Counted from the first letter of the stretch, positions 19,873 through 33,105 are shown. The stretch: DNA of 33,105 nt from Candidatus Gastranaerophilales bacterium (GCA_944325535.1 CALVAL010000016.1:1-33105); one strand, 5' to 3'. The notes: generated by a model not told the origin, from the sequence alone. Program-made: numbers and translations.

Positions 19873-19950
19873 AACTAGTGATTAGTGAGGAGTGAAGAGT
19901 GAATAGATTTATTTTTATTAATTCCTTCTCAACTCCTAAACTTATAAACT
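19873..19950 (+). repeat. Composite dispersed repeat, copy 1
   Basis: 78 bases in two parts. AACTAGTGATTAGTGAGGAG-like sequence (19873-19906) is joined by an AT spacer to a CTTCTCAACTCCTAAACTTATAAACT part (19925-19950). The reverse complement of 32807-32877 has the same two parts in the same order. The second part also matches the right flank of the S23 gene (29355-29385) with one indel and one mismatch. Confidence 0.75.
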
Positions 19951-19957
19951 TTTTAAT

Positions 19958-19990
19958 ACCTCATCCTAACCTTCTCCTTATATGAGAAGG
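19958..19990 (+). repeat. CCTCATCCTAACCTTCTCC repeat with hairpin
   Basis: CCTCATCCTAA is followed by CCTTCTC (19970-19976) that pairs with GAGAAGG (19984-19990). The same layout, CCCCATCCTAA followed by a CCTTCCCC hairpin, recurs at 33042-33072, again near a composite repeat. It looks like a REP-type extragenic element. Confidence 0.6.
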
Positions 19991-20143
19991 AATGTTTTCC
20001 AAGCCCTCTCCTTAAAGAGATGGTTTAGTTAAGGTGATAGTTTTGTACCTTTAAACATTTCCGCTATTTAATTCTCTCCAATTTGATAGATAGCTTCATA
20101 GTTTATTAGAGATAATTTCAAACTATATTCCTGACCTTAATAC

Positions 20144-21861: not shown

Positions 21862-21936
21862 TGGAGCGGGAGACGAGGCTCGAACTCGCGACATCCTCCT
21901 TGGCAAGGAGGCATTCTACCACTGAATTACCCCCGC
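21862..21936 (-). tRNA. tRNA-Gly (GCC anticodon), CCA encoded
   Basis: Read on the minus strand from 21936: acceptor GCGGGGG, D-arm TTCAGTGGTAGAA, anticodon arm CCTCC-TTGCCAA-GGAGG with GCC, T-arm GCGAG-TTCGAGC-CTCGT, acceptor CTCCCGC, discriminator T, then an encoded CCA (21864-21862). All stems pair, with one G-U in the acceptor and one in the T stem. It has its own promoter (22004-22031) and terminator. Confidence 0.96.
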
Positions 21937-27822: not shown

Positions 27823-28917
27823 ATGGTAAACAAACTTATTAAGGAAGACACTAGAATGTTCCTTACTGGAAATGAAGTGTTAGCTTATGCTGCTAATTCA
27901 GCAGAAGCAGAATTCATGTATGGTTATCCAATCACACCTCAAAACGAAATTATGCACACTTGGTGTAAATTATTACCAAAAACTGGTGCAGGATTTTTAC
28001 AAACTGAGGATGAAATTTCAGCAGGATTTTCAACAATCGGCGGTATTTTAGCTGGTAAAAGAGCATTTACGGCTACAGCTGGACCTGGAAATGTTATTAT
28101 GCAAGATGCTCAATCAATGGCTGAAATGATGAGAATACCGTTTGTATGCGCAGTTATGCAAAGAGGCGGACCTTCTACAGCTACAGTTATTTATGCACAA
28201 CAAGAAACAAGATTAACATGTTATGGTGGCAATGGCGAAGGTTTCAGAATTGTATACTCAACAGCCGGTCACCAAGATTTATATGATTATATGATTAAAG
28301 CTTTCAATACAGCTTGGAAATATCGTTTCCCAACTTATGTATTAGCTGATGGTTACCAAGGTAAGATGAGAGAACCTGTAATGTTATACGACCCTGCTAG
28401 TCGTGGTATTACTATGGTTCCTACTGAAAAAGCTTTACTTGGCCCTGGAGAAATCGGTGTTGATAGAAAATCAACTCATATGAGAAATACATATAATATG
28501 GAAGAAGAGCTTATGGAAGTTCTTGAAGGATATCAAGCTGATTACGAAAAAATGTCAGAAGAAGTTCAAGAATGGGAAGAATATAAAGCAGAAGATGCTG
28601 AAATTCTTGTAATCGCTCATGGTATCGTTGCACGTTCAGCAAGAACCGCTATCGATGAATTAAGAGCTAAAGGAATTAAAGCAGGCTTATTCAGACCAAT
28701 TACAATAAGACCGCTTGCGGTTAAACCTCTTAGAGCAGCAGTTTCAAGAGCTAAGAAAATTCTATTTACTGAATCAGCTAATGGTCAATTAGCACAAATG
28801 GTATTAGAAAAATTATATGGCTTGACTACACCTTATGATACTCTATTCAAGATGGGTGTTGGTGTAACAGGTGATGATATTGTTAAAAAAGTTGAGTCAA
28901 TGGCAGTAGCTGTATAG
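27823..28917 (+). CDS. korA: 2-oxoacid:ferredoxin oxidoreductase, alpha subunit (KorA/VorB type)
   Basis: 364 residues covering the pyrimidine-side TPP domain and the transketolase C-terminal domain in one chain. GNEVLAYAANSAEAEFMYGYPITPQNEI is the family's N-terminal block; TATAGPGNVIMQDAQSMAEMM and QRGGPSTATVIYAQQ follow. It works with the beta, gamma and delta subunits encoded downstream to cleave a 2-oxoacid to acyl-CoA and CO2 with reduction of ferredoxin, or the reverse. Whether the substrate is 2-oxoglutarate, a branched-chain 2-oxoacid or another cannot be read here, so the symbol names the family. GAAGG precedes the ATG. Confidence 0.88.
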   Translation: MVNKLIKEDTRMFLTGNEVLAYAANSAEAEFMYGYPITPQNEIMHTWCKLLPKTGAGFLQTEDEISAGFSTIGGILAGKRAFTATAGPGNVIMQDAQSMAEMMRIPFVCAVMQRGGPSTATVIYAQQETRLTCYGGNGEGFRIVYSTAGHQDLYDYMIKAFNTAWKYRFPTYVLADGYQGKMREPVMLYDPASRGITMVPTEKALLGPGEIGVDRKSTHMRNTYNMEEELMEVLEGYQADYEKMSEEVQEWEEYKAEDAEILVIAHGIVARSARTAIDELRAKGIKAGLFRPITIRPLAVKPLRAAVSRAKKILFTESANGQLAQMVLEKLYGLTTPYDTLFKMGVGVTGDDIVKKVESMAVAV

Positions 28918-28955
28918 AGTTTAGGAGTTTAGAAGTTGAGTAGTTTAGAAGAAAT
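28917..28955 (+). repeat. Left end of the S23 element
   Basis: 39 bases starting in the korA stop codon and covering the ribosome site, TTG start and first codons of the S23 gene. The reverse complement of 30826-30864 is identical at 38 of 39 positions. The sequence is built of GAGTTTAG / AGAAGTTGAG steps. Confidence 0.85.
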
Positions 28956-29328
28956 TAAAACTTATTCATATAGTTTCGAAAAGCTTATTGTTTGGCAAAA
29001 GTCAATAGAATTAGCTAAAAGAATCTACTCAACAACTTCACAATTCCCAAAAGAAGAAACCTATGGATTGTCATCTCAAATCAGAAGAGCTGTAGTTTCG
29101 ATATCTTCAAATATTGCAGAAGGGTATGTAAAATCTTCAGCTAAAGAACAAGTAAGATTTACTGAAATTGCATATGGCAGTCTAATGGAGGTCTTGAGTC
29201 AGGTAATTATAGCAAATAAAATTGGATATATTATTGAAGATGATTATTTGATTTTAAGACAAGATATTGAAGAAATTTCAAGGATGCTAAATGCTCTAAG
29301 AAATTCACAAATAGAGAAGCAAGATTAG
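28936..29328 (+). CDS. S23-type four-helix-bundle protein inserted in the oxidoreductase operon
   Basis: 130 residues, TTG start with AGGAG eight bases upstream (28923-28927). FEKLIVWQKSIELAKRIYSTT, FPKEETYGLSSQIRRAVVSISSNIAEG and EIAYGSLMEV are the signature of the 23S-intervening-sequence protein family, which forms four-helix-bundle pentamers. In several bacteria the family is encoded by intervening sequences inside 23S rRNA genes; many stand-alone copies exist and the function is unknown. Here it lies between the alpha and beta subunit genes and is flanked by repeat ends (28917-28955 and 29355-29393), one of which occurs again in a gene-less copy at 30781-30864. Confidence 0.9.
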   Translation: MSSLEEIKTYSYSFEKLIVWQKSIELAKRIYSTTSQFPKEETYGLSSQIRRAVVSISSNIAEGYVKSSAKEQVRFTEIAYGSLMEVLSQVIIANKIGYIIEDDYLILRQDIEEISRMLNALRNSQIEKQD

Positions 29329-29354
29329 TTTAATAGATGAGCGAAGCGAATTTA

Positions 29355-29393
29355 AATTCTTCTCAACTCATAAACTTATAAACTTCTCAACTA
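29355..29393 (+). repeat. Right end of the S23 element
   Basis: AATTCTTCTCAACTCATAAA continues into CTTATAAACTTCTCAACT. It is roughly inverted relative to the left end (TTCTCAACT against AGTTGAG). It recurs in composite repeat copy 1 (19920-19951) and, diverged, in copy 2 and in the gene-less copy. Confidence 0.75.
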
Positions 29394-29418
29394 TTCAAAT
29401 TTAAAAAAGGAGATGAAT

Positions 29419-30171
29419 ATGTCAGAAATATTAACACTTCCTCCAAATTTACCAAAATCTCAAAATGCTGAGGTTGGAGCAAGTAAATTCTGTCCAGGAT
29501 GCGGACATGGTATAACACTAAAAGCACTTGGAAATGCTATCGATGAGTTAGGTATTAAACAAAAAACAGTATTCGGATGCGATATTGGATGTTCTTTATT
29601 ATCTTGGAACTACATGGACTTAGATACTGTACAGACTCACCATGGTAGAACAACTCCTGTCATTTATGGCGTAACAAGAGCTAATCCAGAAGCAATTGGT
29701 ATTGCTTATATGGGTGACGGTGGCGGACTTGCTATTGGTGCTCAACACTTAGTAAACGCTACAGTTCGTGGTGAAAGAATGATGATAGTTGTTGTAAATA
29801 ACACTAACTATGGTATGACAGGTGGACAAATGTCACCTACTACAATGCCTGGTCAAAAAACTGAAACAACTCCATATGGTCGCGACTGTGATGTTACAGG
29901 TAAACCTGCTAAAGCTGCTGAAATGGTTGCAGCAATTGCTGACCCTGCTAAATCATACGTTGCAAGATCTACTGTTTCAAATGTTATCAAACTAAAATCA
30001 GCATTTGTAAAAGGGCTTAAGAATGTTCAAAACGGTGGTTTCTCATTCATCGAAGTATTATCAATTTGTCCTTTGAACTGGAGAACTAATAACTACGATA
30101 CATTCGCAAGACTTCAACAAATGGAAGAATTCTTTGAAGTAAAAGAATTTTTAGTACCTGAGAATGTATAA
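29419..30171 (+). CDS. korB: 2-oxoacid:ferredoxin oxidoreductase, beta subunit (TPP-binding)
   Basis: 250 residues from the ATG at 29419. An ATG two codons earlier (29413) touches the AAGGAG ribosome site, so the second is preferred. C25 and C28 in KFCPGCGHGI are cluster ligands of this subunit class. GIAYMGDGGGLAIGA with VVVNNTNYGMTGGQMSPTT is the TPP/Mg2+ motif. The tail FSFIEVLSICPLNWRTN matches the KorB/VorA-type end. It is normally directly next to the alpha gene; here the S23 element separates them by about 500 bases. Confidence 0.9.
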   Translation: MSEILTLPPNLPKSQNAEVGASKFCPGCGHGITLKALGNAIDELGIKQKTVFGCDIGCSLLSWNYMDLDTVQTHHGRTTPVIYGVTRANPEAIGIAYMGDGGGLAIGAQHLVNATVRGERMMIVVVNNTNYGMTGGQMSPTTMPGQKTETTPYGRDCDVTGKPAKAAEMVAAIADPAKSYVARSTVSNVIKLKSAFVKGLKNVQNGGFSFIEVLSICPLNWRTNNYDTFARLQQMEEFFEVKEFLVPENV

Positions 30172-30201
30172 TCATAATAGAAATAATTTGGAGAATATAA
30201 A

Positions 30202-30765
30202 ATGGCAAGAACAAAAATAGTATTAGCAGGTGAAGGCGGACAAGGCGTTCAATCTATCGCTAAAATTCTTGTAGAAGCTGGATATGAAGCTGGAAAACAA
30301 GTTCTTTATATTCCAAACTTCGGTGTAGAACAAAGAGGCGGTGTATCAATTGCTTTCTGCCAAATCGCTGATGAAAGAATCGGTGAGCCTCGTTATTCTA
30401 AAGGTGATATTATTATCATGCTATCAGATAGAGCTATCGATAGATGCGAGACTTATGTTGATGAAAACTCAACTGTTGTATATGATACATCAGTATGTAG
30501 CAAAAAACCTACTGTTAAATGTAAACGTGTAATTGGTATCGATGCTAATAAAATCGCGAATGAAAAATTAAGTGCAAGAGTATTTAACATCATTATCTTA
30601 GGTGTATTGCTTGCAGCTACTAATGTACTTGAATTAAGCGATATTAAAAACGCTATGGAAATGGCATTAGGTAAGAAATTTGATGCTAAGCCTGAACTAA
30701 GAGATTTGAACTACAAAGCTCTTGAAATGGGTATGAATATGATTACCGAAAAAATTGGAGTTTAA
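30202..30765 (+). CDS. korC: 2-oxoacid:ferredoxin oxidoreductase, gamma subunit
   Basis: 187 residues, catalytic-domain fold of POR/KOR gamma subunits: AGEGGQGVQSIAKILVEAGY at the start, then IPNFGVEQRGGVSIAFCQIA and the SKGDIIIMLSD block. It forms the CoA-side domain of the complex. TTTGGAG precedes the ATG, 30 bases after the beta gene, so translation is linked. A gene-less copy of the S23 repeat follows it. Confidence 0.92.
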   Translation: MARTKIVLAGEGGQGVQSIAKILVEAGYEAGKQVLYIPNFGVEQRGGVSIAFCQIADERIGEPRYSKGDIIIMLSDRAIDRCETYVDENSTVVYDTSVCSKKPTVKCKRVIGIDANKIANEKLSARVFNIIILGVLLAATNVLELSDIKNAMEMALGKKFDAKPELRDLNYKALEMGMNMITEKIGV

Positions 30766-30780
30766 AAAGTAGATAAGAGG

Positions 30781-30864
30781 ATAAGTTTAGAAGTTTATGA
30801 GAAGTATTATTTTTAATAAATTAAAATTTCTTCTAAACTCCTCAACTTCTAAACTCCTAAACTC
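30781..30864 (-). repeat. Gene-less (deleted) copy of the S23 element, inverted
   Basis: On the minus strand, 30864-30826 matches the S23 left end at 38 of 39 bases. After about 20 AT-rich bases, 30805-30781 resembles the right end (CTTCTCATAAACTTCTAAAC). The two ends without the 360-base middle make a MITE-like derivative about 84 bases long, in opposite orientation to the full element. Confidence 0.8.
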
Positions 30865-30882: not shown

Positions 30883-31161
30883 ATGTCACAAGAAAAGAAA
30901 GAATATAAAGGTTATAAAATCGAAGGCGTTGGCAAAGGAAAAGCTGACTACTACGTTTATACAGACTTATGCAAGGGATGTGGTCTTTGTATCGCAAAAT
31001 GCCCTATGAACAAAGCAGGAAAAAAATGTTTGCAATGGTCTAAAGAAGTTGGACTATATCAAACTCCTGCAGTTGCTCCGGATCCTGAAATTTGTATCGC
31101 TTGCGGAGCTTGTGCGATGACCTGTCCTGACAGTGCAATAAGAATTGAGAAAAGACAGTAA
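30883..31161 (+). CDS. korD: 2-oxoacid:ferredoxin oxidoreductase, delta subunit (2x[4Fe-4S] ferredoxin)
   Basis: 92 residues. Two cluster motifs: C30, C33, C36, C40 (CKGCGLCIAKCP) and C71, C74, C77, C81 (CIACGACAMTCP). It transfers electrons from the TPP subunit to free ferredoxin. In many genomes the delta gene comes first (D-A-B-C); here it is last and separated from the gamma gene by the gene-less repeat. AAAGGA precedes the ATG. The operon ends at the terminator at 31180. Confidence 0.92.
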   Translation: MSQEKKEYKGYKIEGVGKGKADYYVYTDLCKGCGLCIAKCPMNKAGKKCLQWSKEVGLYQTPAVAPDPEICIACGACAMTCPDSAIRIEKRQ

Positions 31162-31248: not shown

Positions 31249-32127
31249 ATGAAGAAAATTATTATTTGCGGACTAGGTGCTGTTGGTACAACTATTGGAG
31301 CTAGGATTAATTCTAAGTGTGAATTAAGAATTCTTGCTGATGAAGTTCGTATAAATAAATACAAAAATAATCCGCCAAGATTTAATAATATTGAACAAAA
31401 TTTTAAATACATTTACCCAAATGATAGTTTTGAAGCTGATTTAATTATTATTTCTACAAAATATCAAGGACTAAATAAAGCGATTGAATTTATTAAAAAT
31501 TTTGTGGGTAAAAAGACTATAATTATTTCACTTTTGAATGGAATAAGCTCAGAAAATATCATCAAAAAAAATTATCCGAATGCAAAAGTTTTGAAATCCT
31601 ACCTAATTTGTCATAGTGCAATGAGAGAGGGAAATTCAACTATACAAGATGGCAAGCTTGAATTATTTATTGAAAATGATAAGAATTTAGCTGATATTTT
31701 AGATGAAATTGGATTAAAATATACAATTCCTCAAGATATCGATTATTCAATGTGGCTAAAATTTACGCTTAATCTTTTTTCTAACCAAGTATCAGCGATA
31801 TTAAAGCTAAAATTTGGTGAGATGAAAAATAATTTAGAATTCATTAAATTTGCTAAAAAAATAATCGCAGAAACTAAATCTATTGCTGAAAAAATTGGGA
31901 TTAAGAATTTAGAAAATTTAGAAAAAGATGCGCTAGTATTTCTTTCCCAAATGTCAGATGATGGTAAAACATCTATGTATCAAGATGTCTTAGCAAAACG
32001 AGAGACCGAAGTAGAAGCTTTTGCCGGTGAAATTGTAAGACTTGGAAAAGAATTAGGAGTCGAGACTCCATATAATCAAGTGATGTATGATTTAATTAAA
32101 ATTATAGATTTTGAGGTAAAAAAATGA
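31249..32127 (+). CDS. panE: 2-dehydropantoate 2-reductase (ketopantoate reductase) family
   Basis: 292 residues, typical length. NADPH-binding GLGAVG (8-13), the catalytic lysine K171 and N175/N179 in MWLKFTLNLFSNQ, and the C-terminal TSMYQDVLAKRETEVEAFAGE block are the PanE signature. It reduces ketopantoate to pantoate for coenzyme A synthesis. Some members of the family act on other 2-oxoacids. It is directly followed, with a four-base overlap, by a CMP-sugar synthetase gene. Leaderless initiation is likely. Confidence 0.88.
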   Translation: MKKIIICGLGAVGTTIGARINSKCELRILADEVRINKYKNNPPRFNNIEQNFKYIYPNDSFEADLIIISTKYQGLNKAIEFIKNFVGKKTIIISLLNGISSENIIKKNYPNAKVLKSYLICHSAMREGNSTIQDGKLELFIENDKNLADILDEIGLKYTIPQDIDYSMWLKFTLNLFSNQVSAILKLKFGEMKNNLEFIKFAKKIIAETKSIAEKIGIKNLENLEKDALVFLSQMSDDGKTSMYQDVLAKRETEVEAFAGEIVRLGKELGVETPYNQVMYDLIKIIDFEVKK

Positions 32128-32813
32128 ACATAGCTTTTATTCCTGTGCGTGGAGGCAGCAAATCTATTCCTATGAAAAATATAAAAGAGCTTAATGGAAA
32201 GCCTCTTGTATATTGGACTGCAAAAGCTGCTAATGCTGCTAAATGTATTGATAAAGTAGTTATTGCAACTGACTCTAAGGAAATAAAGGAAGTTGTTTCA
32301 ATTTTTAATTTAGATAAAATAGAAATTTATGATAGAAAGCCTCAAAATGCTTCAGATACAGCATCAACTGAGAGCGTTATGCTTGAATATATCGCCCAAT
32401 CAGATTTAGATAATAGGGATAATTTCTTTTTAATCCAAGCAACTTCACCAATGTTGAAATCAGAACATATCGATAATATGTATCAAAAATTTGTAGATTC
32501 TAATGCTGATTCTATTTTTTCAGGAGTAGTTGAAAAACAGTTTAAATGGAAATTTGTAGATGGGAAAAAATCTGTAATCGAGCCTGTAAATTATGATTAT
32601 CAAAACCGTCCAAGAAGGCAAGATTTTGAAGGCTTAGTTGCAGAGACCGGAGCTTGCTATATTAATTCAGTTGGGAATATAAAAAAAGATAAATGCCGCC
32701 TTTCAGGGAATATAACTTTTTATGAGCTTCCAAGCTATACTGCTTATGAAATAGATGAAGAATCTGATTGGATTATTGTTGAACAACTTATGAAAAATTA
32801 CCAAAAAGTTTAG
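32124..32813 (+). CDS. neuA: Acylneuraminate cytidylyltransferase (CMP-sialic acid synthetase family)
   Basis: 229 residues. IPVRGGSKSIPMKNIKELNGKPLVYW is the NeuA/PseF/KdsB nucleotide-binding start; IQATSPMLKSEHID and NRPRRQDFEGLVAETGACY follow in family order. It activates a nonulosonic acid (sialic, pseudaminic or legionaminic type) as the CMP form for surface glycans. Which sugar is unclear, since no synthase gene is visible. It overlaps panE by four bases (ATGA). Its last codon and stop lie within composite repeat copy 2. Confidence 0.88.
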   Translation: MNIAFIPVRGGSKSIPMKNIKELNGKPLVYWTAKAANAAKCIDKVVIATDSKEIKEVVSIFNLDKIEIYDRKPQNASDTASTESVMLEYIAQSDLDNRDNFFLIQATSPMLKSEHIDNMYQKFVDSNADSIFSGVVEKQFKWKFVDGKKSVIEPVNYDYQNRPRRQDFEGLVAETGACYINSVGNIKKDKCRLSGNITFYELPSYTAYEIDEESDWIIVEQLMKNYQKV

Positions 32814-32877
32814 AAGTTTATAAGTTGAGAAGAAGTTAATTAAAAAAACTCTATTCACCAGTCACTACTCACTAGTT
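32807..32877 (-). repeat. Composite dispersed repeat, copy 2 (inverted)
   Basis: The reverse complement starts AACTAGTGAGTAGTGACTGG, like copy 1 (19873-19950), followed by an AT spacer and CTTCTCAACTTATAAACT. It overlaps the final codons of the neuA-like gene, so the insertion supplied or replaced the gene's end. Confidence 0.72.
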
Positions 32878-32970
32878 TATATACTCTTGGTGAAAAAAAT
32901 TGCACCCTACTTACTAATATAAGTATTAATTATGAATAGGAGTATAGTTTATTTTTATGAAAAATATACT

Positions 32971-32990
32971 CTCTCCCCAATTGGGGAGAG
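32971..32990. repeat. 20-bp perfect palindrome CTCTCCCC/GGGGAGAG
   Basis: CTCTCCCCAATTGGGGAGAG is fully self-complementary and followed by TAGGAGAGGGG. It is GC-rich against an AT-rich background. Confidence 0.7.
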
Positions 32991-33041
32991 TAGGAGAGGG
33001 GAATAAATAAATATTATTTGAATTTTAAAAATTTTATTGTT

Positions 33042-33072
33042 CCCCATCCTAACCTTCCCCAACTGGGGAAGG
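33042..33072. repeat. CCCCATCCTAA repeat with CCTTCCCC hairpin
   Basis: CCCCATCCTAA is followed by CCTTCCCCAACTGGGGAAGG (33053-33072, 9-bp arms) and a T run. The layout equals 19958-19990. It could act as a terminator, but the repetition suggests a REP-type element. Bases 32878-32970 and 33073-33105 hold nothing else I can identify. Confidence 0.65.
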
Positions 33073-33105
33073 AGATTTTTTGTACCAATTTGAGTACAAT
33101 CAATT

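Follow-up and report, generated by a model that had tools for sequence, protein, structure and literature searches.

An S23 gene between inverted octamer arrays in a kor operon of a Candidatus Gastranaerophilales bacterium: a probable small mobile element with many gene-less copies

Introduction

Among the described systems closest to the element reported here are the intervening sequences (IVSs) in the 23S rRNA genes of Leptospira and Coxiella, which carry an ORF of the same S23 protein family and have inverted ends. To our knowledge, S23 proteins have been without an established function since their description in 1993, and we know of no catalytic site, known or recognised, in them. The Coxiella IVS has tandem heptamers (GACAGAT) upstream of its ORF (PMC4990558); the same paper cites Ralph and McClelland (1993) for the proposal that IVSs are mobile and that the ORF is their mobility component. 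Tandem heptamers are also reported to be the commonest periodic repeats between prokaryotic genes, with "no clear clue" as to their function (PMC6344855). Such arrays have been reported, without a cause, in Xanthomonas (PMC4692102; 186 arrays, with 70 cases of convergence), in Nostoc, in Beggiatoaceae and in prokaryotes at large (PMC6344855).

Results

Organisation of the S23 element

The window (the whole stretch of DNA analysed, 33,105 nt) is contig 16 of assembly G000 (1.99 Mb, 114 contigs). An element of about 475 bp (28918-29392) lies between korA and korB, starting right behind the korA stop codon and stopping shortly 5' of the korB Shine-Dalgarno sequence; at base level it begins with 28918, the preceding G (28917) still being part of the korA stop (TAG). 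The first-pass annotation had placed an S23 gene between these two oxidoreductase genes, and the matches to PF05635 and TIGR02436 and to the surrounding kor genes agree with this. The features of the region are:

27823-28917, plus strand: korA (2-oxoacid:ferredoxin oxidoreductase alpha; PF01855, PF17147), its TAG stop abutting the element
28918-28951, plus strand: left arm, AGTTTAGG AGTTTAGA AGTTGAGT AGTTTAGA AG (sequence, periodicity 8)
28936-29328, plus strand: S23 / 23S rRNA-IVP family gene, 130 aa (PF05635, TIGR02436, structure match)
29359-29392, minus strand: right arm, inverse octamer array, minus strand AGTTGAGA AGTTTATA AGTTTATG AGTTGAGA AG (sequence, repeat search, periodicity)
29413-30171, plus strand: korB (PF02775)
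30202-30765, plus strand: korC (PF01558)
30768-30803, plus strand: left octamer arm, degenerate, of a gene-less element in the korC-korD gap (repeat search, octamer pattern)
30830-30863, minus strand: right octamer arm, inverse, of the gene-less element, inside the 38/39 match to 28917-28955 (repeat search)
30883-31161, plus strand: korD (ferredoxin-like delta subunit; Fer4 families)

Each end of the S23 element consists of about 4.25 units of the octamer AGTT[TG]A[GT]N with five in-phase AG anchors, and the two arrays are inverted relative to each other. The left arm (four octamers plus AG) overlaps the start of the S23 gene: the TTG start codon lies within it, and the arm provides a Shine-Dalgarno-like sequence (AGGAG). 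The inverse recurrence of the left end (28917-28955 against the reverse complement of 30826-30864) was confirmed at 38 of 39 positions, and in the repeat search it extends to 50 nt at 92% identity. There is indeed no gene between this inverse copy and the sequence at 30768-30803, which resembles an inverse right end. What had been overlooked is that both "ends" are arrays of 8-base units, with more such arrays across the genome. Over the whole window, the Rfam search returned a single match, a tRNA gene (21865-21936, minus strand).

The S23 protein

The window ORF matches PF05635 (E=1.4e-39) and TIGR02436 (E=7.3e-38) above the profile cut-off and is modelled as a four-helix bundle, the fold of the S23 / 23S_rRNA_IVP family to which we assign it. 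The model matches 2gsc, the S23 protein of X. campestris, with TM 0.75-0.90. The S23 fold is a known pentamer: the 2gsc and 2rld crystals hold five S23 chains each, and the title of Lin et al. (2006), as cited in PMC3936711, refers to five bundles. Avd, a relative of the same fold, is found in a reverse transcriptase-RNA complex; the match of the window protein to the bAvd profile is weak. S23 is under purifying selection, with a dN/dS of 0.13 between the window gene and its G211 orthologue and values mostly of 0.04-0.17 among S23 genes; those of G094 and G218 contain stops.

Gene-less and hybrid copies in the genome

G000 has two S23 genes, the only other one lying at groES-groEL, just upstream of groEL, between arms of four TAGTGAN heptamers plus TAG, inverted on the right. 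Searches with fixed sequence patterns, on which all array counts rest, gave 100 octamer matches genome-wide (13 for the backwards-read control) and 83 heptamer matches (24 for the backwards control). When merged, these form 81 arms in about 55 clusters across the genome, including some at the edges of contigs that could represent double counts (e.g. C57/C71); most are away from the known S23 sites. At least 13 of the 55 clusters are hybrids, in which one octamer and one heptamer arm face inward, in both orientations. Two of these lie in the window:

19876-19951, plus strand: gene-less hybrid, heptamer arm 19876-19906 (TAG...TAG) and inverse octamer arm 19925-19951
32807-32875, minus strand: gene-less hybrid in the opposite orientation, octamer arm 32807-32832 and inverse heptamer arm 32851-32875

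The pattern proposed at first pass, a full element accompanied by gene-less derivatives, thus stands; its derivation by simple deletion of the window copy does not, given dozens of copies and many two-family hybrids.

At 32807-32813 the octamer arm supplies the final codon and stop (GTT TAG) of a cytidylyltransferase-like gene (32124-32813); elements are thus able to shorten genes or to substitute their ends. A second family of dispersed palindromes (e.g. CTCTCCCCAATTGGGGAGAG and CCTTCCCCAACTGGGGAAGG) often adjoins the octamer and heptamer elements, at 19958-19992, 32968-33000 and 33042-33075 in the window and also at L010, L011, L016, L019, L020 and L022; it might represent a separate, REP-like family.

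S23 loci with iterated inverted arms in other genomes

All S23 loci first read within the same taxonomic order have such arms by eye. In a contig scan with one genome per species, 80 S23 loci were located; their hosts include Bacteroidota, Acidobacteriota, Planctomycetota, Gemmatimonadota, Bacillota, Pseudomonadota and Methanophagales archaea. In 46 of the 80, the inverted match between a locus's own flanks scored above the 99th percentile obtained with swapped flanks; in 26 the score was above 40, a value that no swapped-flank null exceeded. In a pooled set of 180 S23 genes (176 with both flanks; 1463 control window pairs; periods of 5-12 allowed), periodic and mutually inverted flanks above the 95th percentile of the control pairs were found for 154 of the 176, all with a period of 7 (86 genes), 8 (60) or 9 (8). 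Where both arms were strong, they shared the same period in 101 of 103 cases (44% expected). The 99th percentile of the window controls was inflated by gene-less arrays and runs of N, so the flanks of neighbouring genes were also used as controls: S23 flanks scored a median of 26.75 against 11.0 (P=8e-45), and only 42% of S23 genes exceeded the 95th percentile of this control, probably owing to arrays within some of the control flanks.

The units differ between lineages. Arms of S23 genes on cyanobacterial plasmids are built of TAGGGAG, GGGAACA and AGAAGTC, among others, and a distant long-branch S23 subfamily (L245, L270, L285, L286) still has 7-base arms of the GGAAAAT type. Among 16 genomes searched for the unit AGAYRTG, the three whose S23 gene has this unit gave 14, 13 and 72 matches; it was abundant in G242 and G249 as well; most other genomes had few matches or none. 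Carriage by plasmids or phages was considered and set aside: S23 occurs in 22 of 72,556 plasmids, nearly all cyanobacterial, and only Avd genes were found among 50,697 phage records.

S23 has been reported as a CRISPR-associated gene (PMC3936711). The order cas6-S23-cas4, with iterated arms around S23, was seen in the CRISPR operons of L260 (Anabaena sp. 90 pANA02) and L266 (Pseudanabaena galeata pPg_01), and the cas-associated S23 family probably represents insertion.

The insertion gaps are reused (26 groEL, 18 nusA, 6 cysE and 5 korB of 84), and the arm starts at a median of 1 nt 3' of the upstream stop codon. In 117 cases S23 runs in the same direction as both neighbouring genes, against 5 in which it opposes both; antisense S23 genes between two co-directional genes were observed in L258 (Nostoc edaphicum pNe_5; nrdB/nrdA) and L259 (Calothrix PCC 7716). 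The arm position at the stop and the sense bias would fit targeting as well as selection for sites where insertion does no harm. The bias might also point to an RNA-borne retroelement, the excised RNA being copied back by a reverse transcriptase in trans with S23 acting like Avd, for which the IVSs would offer a precedent; the fold kinship of S23 with Avd, a partner of a reverse transcriptase, and the weak bAvd match would also fit. We regard this as improbable: neither G000 nor most of the array-rich relatives (e.g. G215, G217, G132, G209) has an RVT_1 (PF00078) match, and spread driven by a reverse transcriptase was rejected on these grounds.

Movement of gene and arms between sites

S23 was described in the first-pass annotation as cargo of a mobile repeat, a role not borne out, as the period and unit of the arms track the S23 protein lineage. 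In the groES-groEL gap (24 S23 genes with six arm types, from one genus and near kin), arm type can be placed on the S23 tree with the minimum of 5 changes, a number that none of 200 shuffles reached; on the groEL tree it takes 10 (shuffled mean 11.6). On a wide S23 tree, period changes 15 times (52.7 when shuffled; near-copies add to the clustering). Arm type follows the S23 tree and not that of the host groEL; therefore, S23 and its arms move as a cassette. This lineage tracking, the restriction to periods of 7-9, the mutual inversion and the breadth across phyla contradict the growth of simple repeats by slippage, with S23 nearby by chance. Unit number does differ among arrays, and arms can be homogenised by slippage combined with template switching; even so, we give this origin hardly any credence.

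The kor gaps are empty in G094 (KorB 99% identical; about 23 nt between korA and korB, without an element, and about 1 nt between korC and korD), and both elements are present in G211 (KorB 98% identical). No obvious target-site duplication was seen at the kor sites when compared with the empty site of G094, the flanks having diverged. Across the genus, the korA-korB gap holds S23-bearing elements with other units (G125, G236) or gene-less pairs of several unit types, and is empty in many genomes. For the gene-less sites, the first 9 of 12 were compared (4089 of 5520 nt of query): at nusB-ftsY, an ATP synthase gene pair, accB-accC and near pflB (gene names read from translated ends), the element is missing from one relative or differs in array family between sister genomes. 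The family at the pfl-like gap is GTGAAGN in G229 and G094, TAGTGAN in G211 and G198, and the octamer in G000; in G229 and G094, and in G211 and G198, this unit is also the one in the arms of the S23 gene at the groEL site of the same genome. The expectation that the element can spread between genes of protein operons therefore held, with empty sites in G094 and many other genomes of the genus and with many further copies; both situations named at first pass as speaking against it, a lack of empty sites and a lack of further end copies, proved not to apply.

Arrays are commoner in S23-positive genomes (17 of 28, compared with 6 of 30 S23-negative ones; P=0.002), and TAGTGAN counts are higher where S23 has a TAGTGAN arm (P=0.0009). 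Many TAGTGAN arrays also occur in two genomes whose S23 has arms of another type, and six S23-negative genomes, several of them incomplete, are still array-rich, one with 310 matches. In G202, G224, G225 and G237 there are 48-310 heptamer matches and no S23 match; these arrays could be relics, could reflect missing contigs, or could depend on a mobiliser other than S23.

Repeated filling of the same gaps could also stem from loss and homologous recombination. This would be the only means of movement, by way of the conserved flanking genes, if S23 were a host-serving operon module for RNA processing or expression tuning, its gene-less copies being decayed remains. Strong purifying selection, sense orientation, the reuse of the groEL, nusA, cysE and korB gaps and the occurrence of S23-bearing elements and their gene-less versions in one kor gap would all fit such a module. 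It is nevertheless unlikely in view of the patchy presence of S23 (48 of 192 genomes over the cut-off, most of the compared genomes being metagenome assemblies in which absence of S23 or of arrays can mean incompleteness), the exchange of S23 with its arm type next to a groEL of other history, the roughly 55 clusters in one genome, most of them off known S23 sites, and the hybrids and family switches at one gap.

Arm geometry, folding and a proposed mechanism

Within the taxonomic order, arm length is 31 nt at period 7, 34 nt at period 8 and 40 nt at period 9; unit number is thus constant and length is not. In-phase AG runs drop sharply past five (29 arms with 5, 2 with 6). In the RNA of the window element the arms pair end to end (z -2.5), and a pure gene-less heptamer element folds very well (z -8.1). 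Hybrid elements fold poorly (z -2.1, -1.5 and +1.0, at best slightly better than shuffled sequences), and stem pairing is thus dispensable for some copies. Strict stem pairing was rejected on this near-shuffle folding and on the weak in-register matching of units between arms (mean 21.2 against 20.3 when permuted, P=0.001; 1 of 87 loci individually at 0.05).

We consider it likely that the S23 element belongs to a family of small mobile elements in which an S23 pentamer recognises its own five-unit arms and gene-less copies are mobilised. The five chains per S23 crystal and the five anchors per arm suggest one pentamer per arm: each subunit would contact one repeat, and the pentamer would thereby mark an element end. 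TRAP, which reads NAG repeats in RNA, offers a likeness for a ring of S23 reading arm repeats. Placed behind a stop codon in sense orientation, the element would be co-transcribed with the host genes; in the transcript its arms would pair with each other and become a substrate of RNase III, as happens to the intervening sequences of 23S rRNA, and the host operon would thereby keep working. The resident S23 would also act in trans on gene-less arm pairs, which might have brought them to the present dozens of copies and hybrids.

Discussion

IVS mobility and the arrays have each been described before, and in the open-access literature we found no paper linking S23 to heptamer arrays. The S23 element is therefore best seen as a much wider variant of the S23/IVS kind and possibly as a new transposon class. 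The design of an S23 gene between inverted arrays recurs in bacteria and some archaea, and may therefore explain intergenic heptamer repeats. More tentatively, and with somewhat less conviction than we attach to the mobile family itself, a small pentameric four-helix bundle of no known catalytic fold that reads five anchors spaced by 7-9 bases and drives copies into intercistronic gaps could define a new class of transposable elements, with the heptamer repeats largely its footprints and the rRNA IVSs a special case. If S23 proteins own the arrays, the puzzles of S23 and of the heptamer repeats merge into one testable question; many genomes would gain a recognisable mobile-element family, and the reports of CRISPR-associated S23 would be explained as insertions.

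Compared with the IVSs, the window element likewise has inverted ends able to pair in RNA (z -2.5), but it lies in a protein operon (kor) and not in rRNA, it has many gene-less and hybrid copies, its S23 gene is under purifying selection, and its arm unit is specific to the S23 lineage. Six conserved 16S/23S rRNA motifs were absent from all S23 loci examined, and an rRNA location was set aside for the kor operon. Few protein genes (two S23) with many short cognate copies (about 55 clusters) and an arm type matched to the protein recall REPIN/RAYT systems; however, RAYT is an HUH (TnpA, Y1) nuclease acting on REP hairpins, whereas the gene of this element encodes a four-helix bundle, not an HUH-type Y1 transposase, and the ends are built of 7-9-mers. 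As in MITEs and their autonomous transposons, the gene-less copy and the putatively autonomous S23 copy have terminal inverted ends in common (38/39 match, octamer arms); the S23 element differs in having no transposase fold, no target duplication seen, and ends that are arrays of about five anchors. The Avd protein of diversity-generating retroelements shares the fold and the pentamer, but those elements have a reverse transcriptase (PF00078), which G000 lacks. Finally, the heptamer repeats of Xanthomonas, Nostoc, Calothrix and Beggiatoaceae resemble the arms described here in being intergenic 7-mers, mostly of four units and often in convergent pairs.
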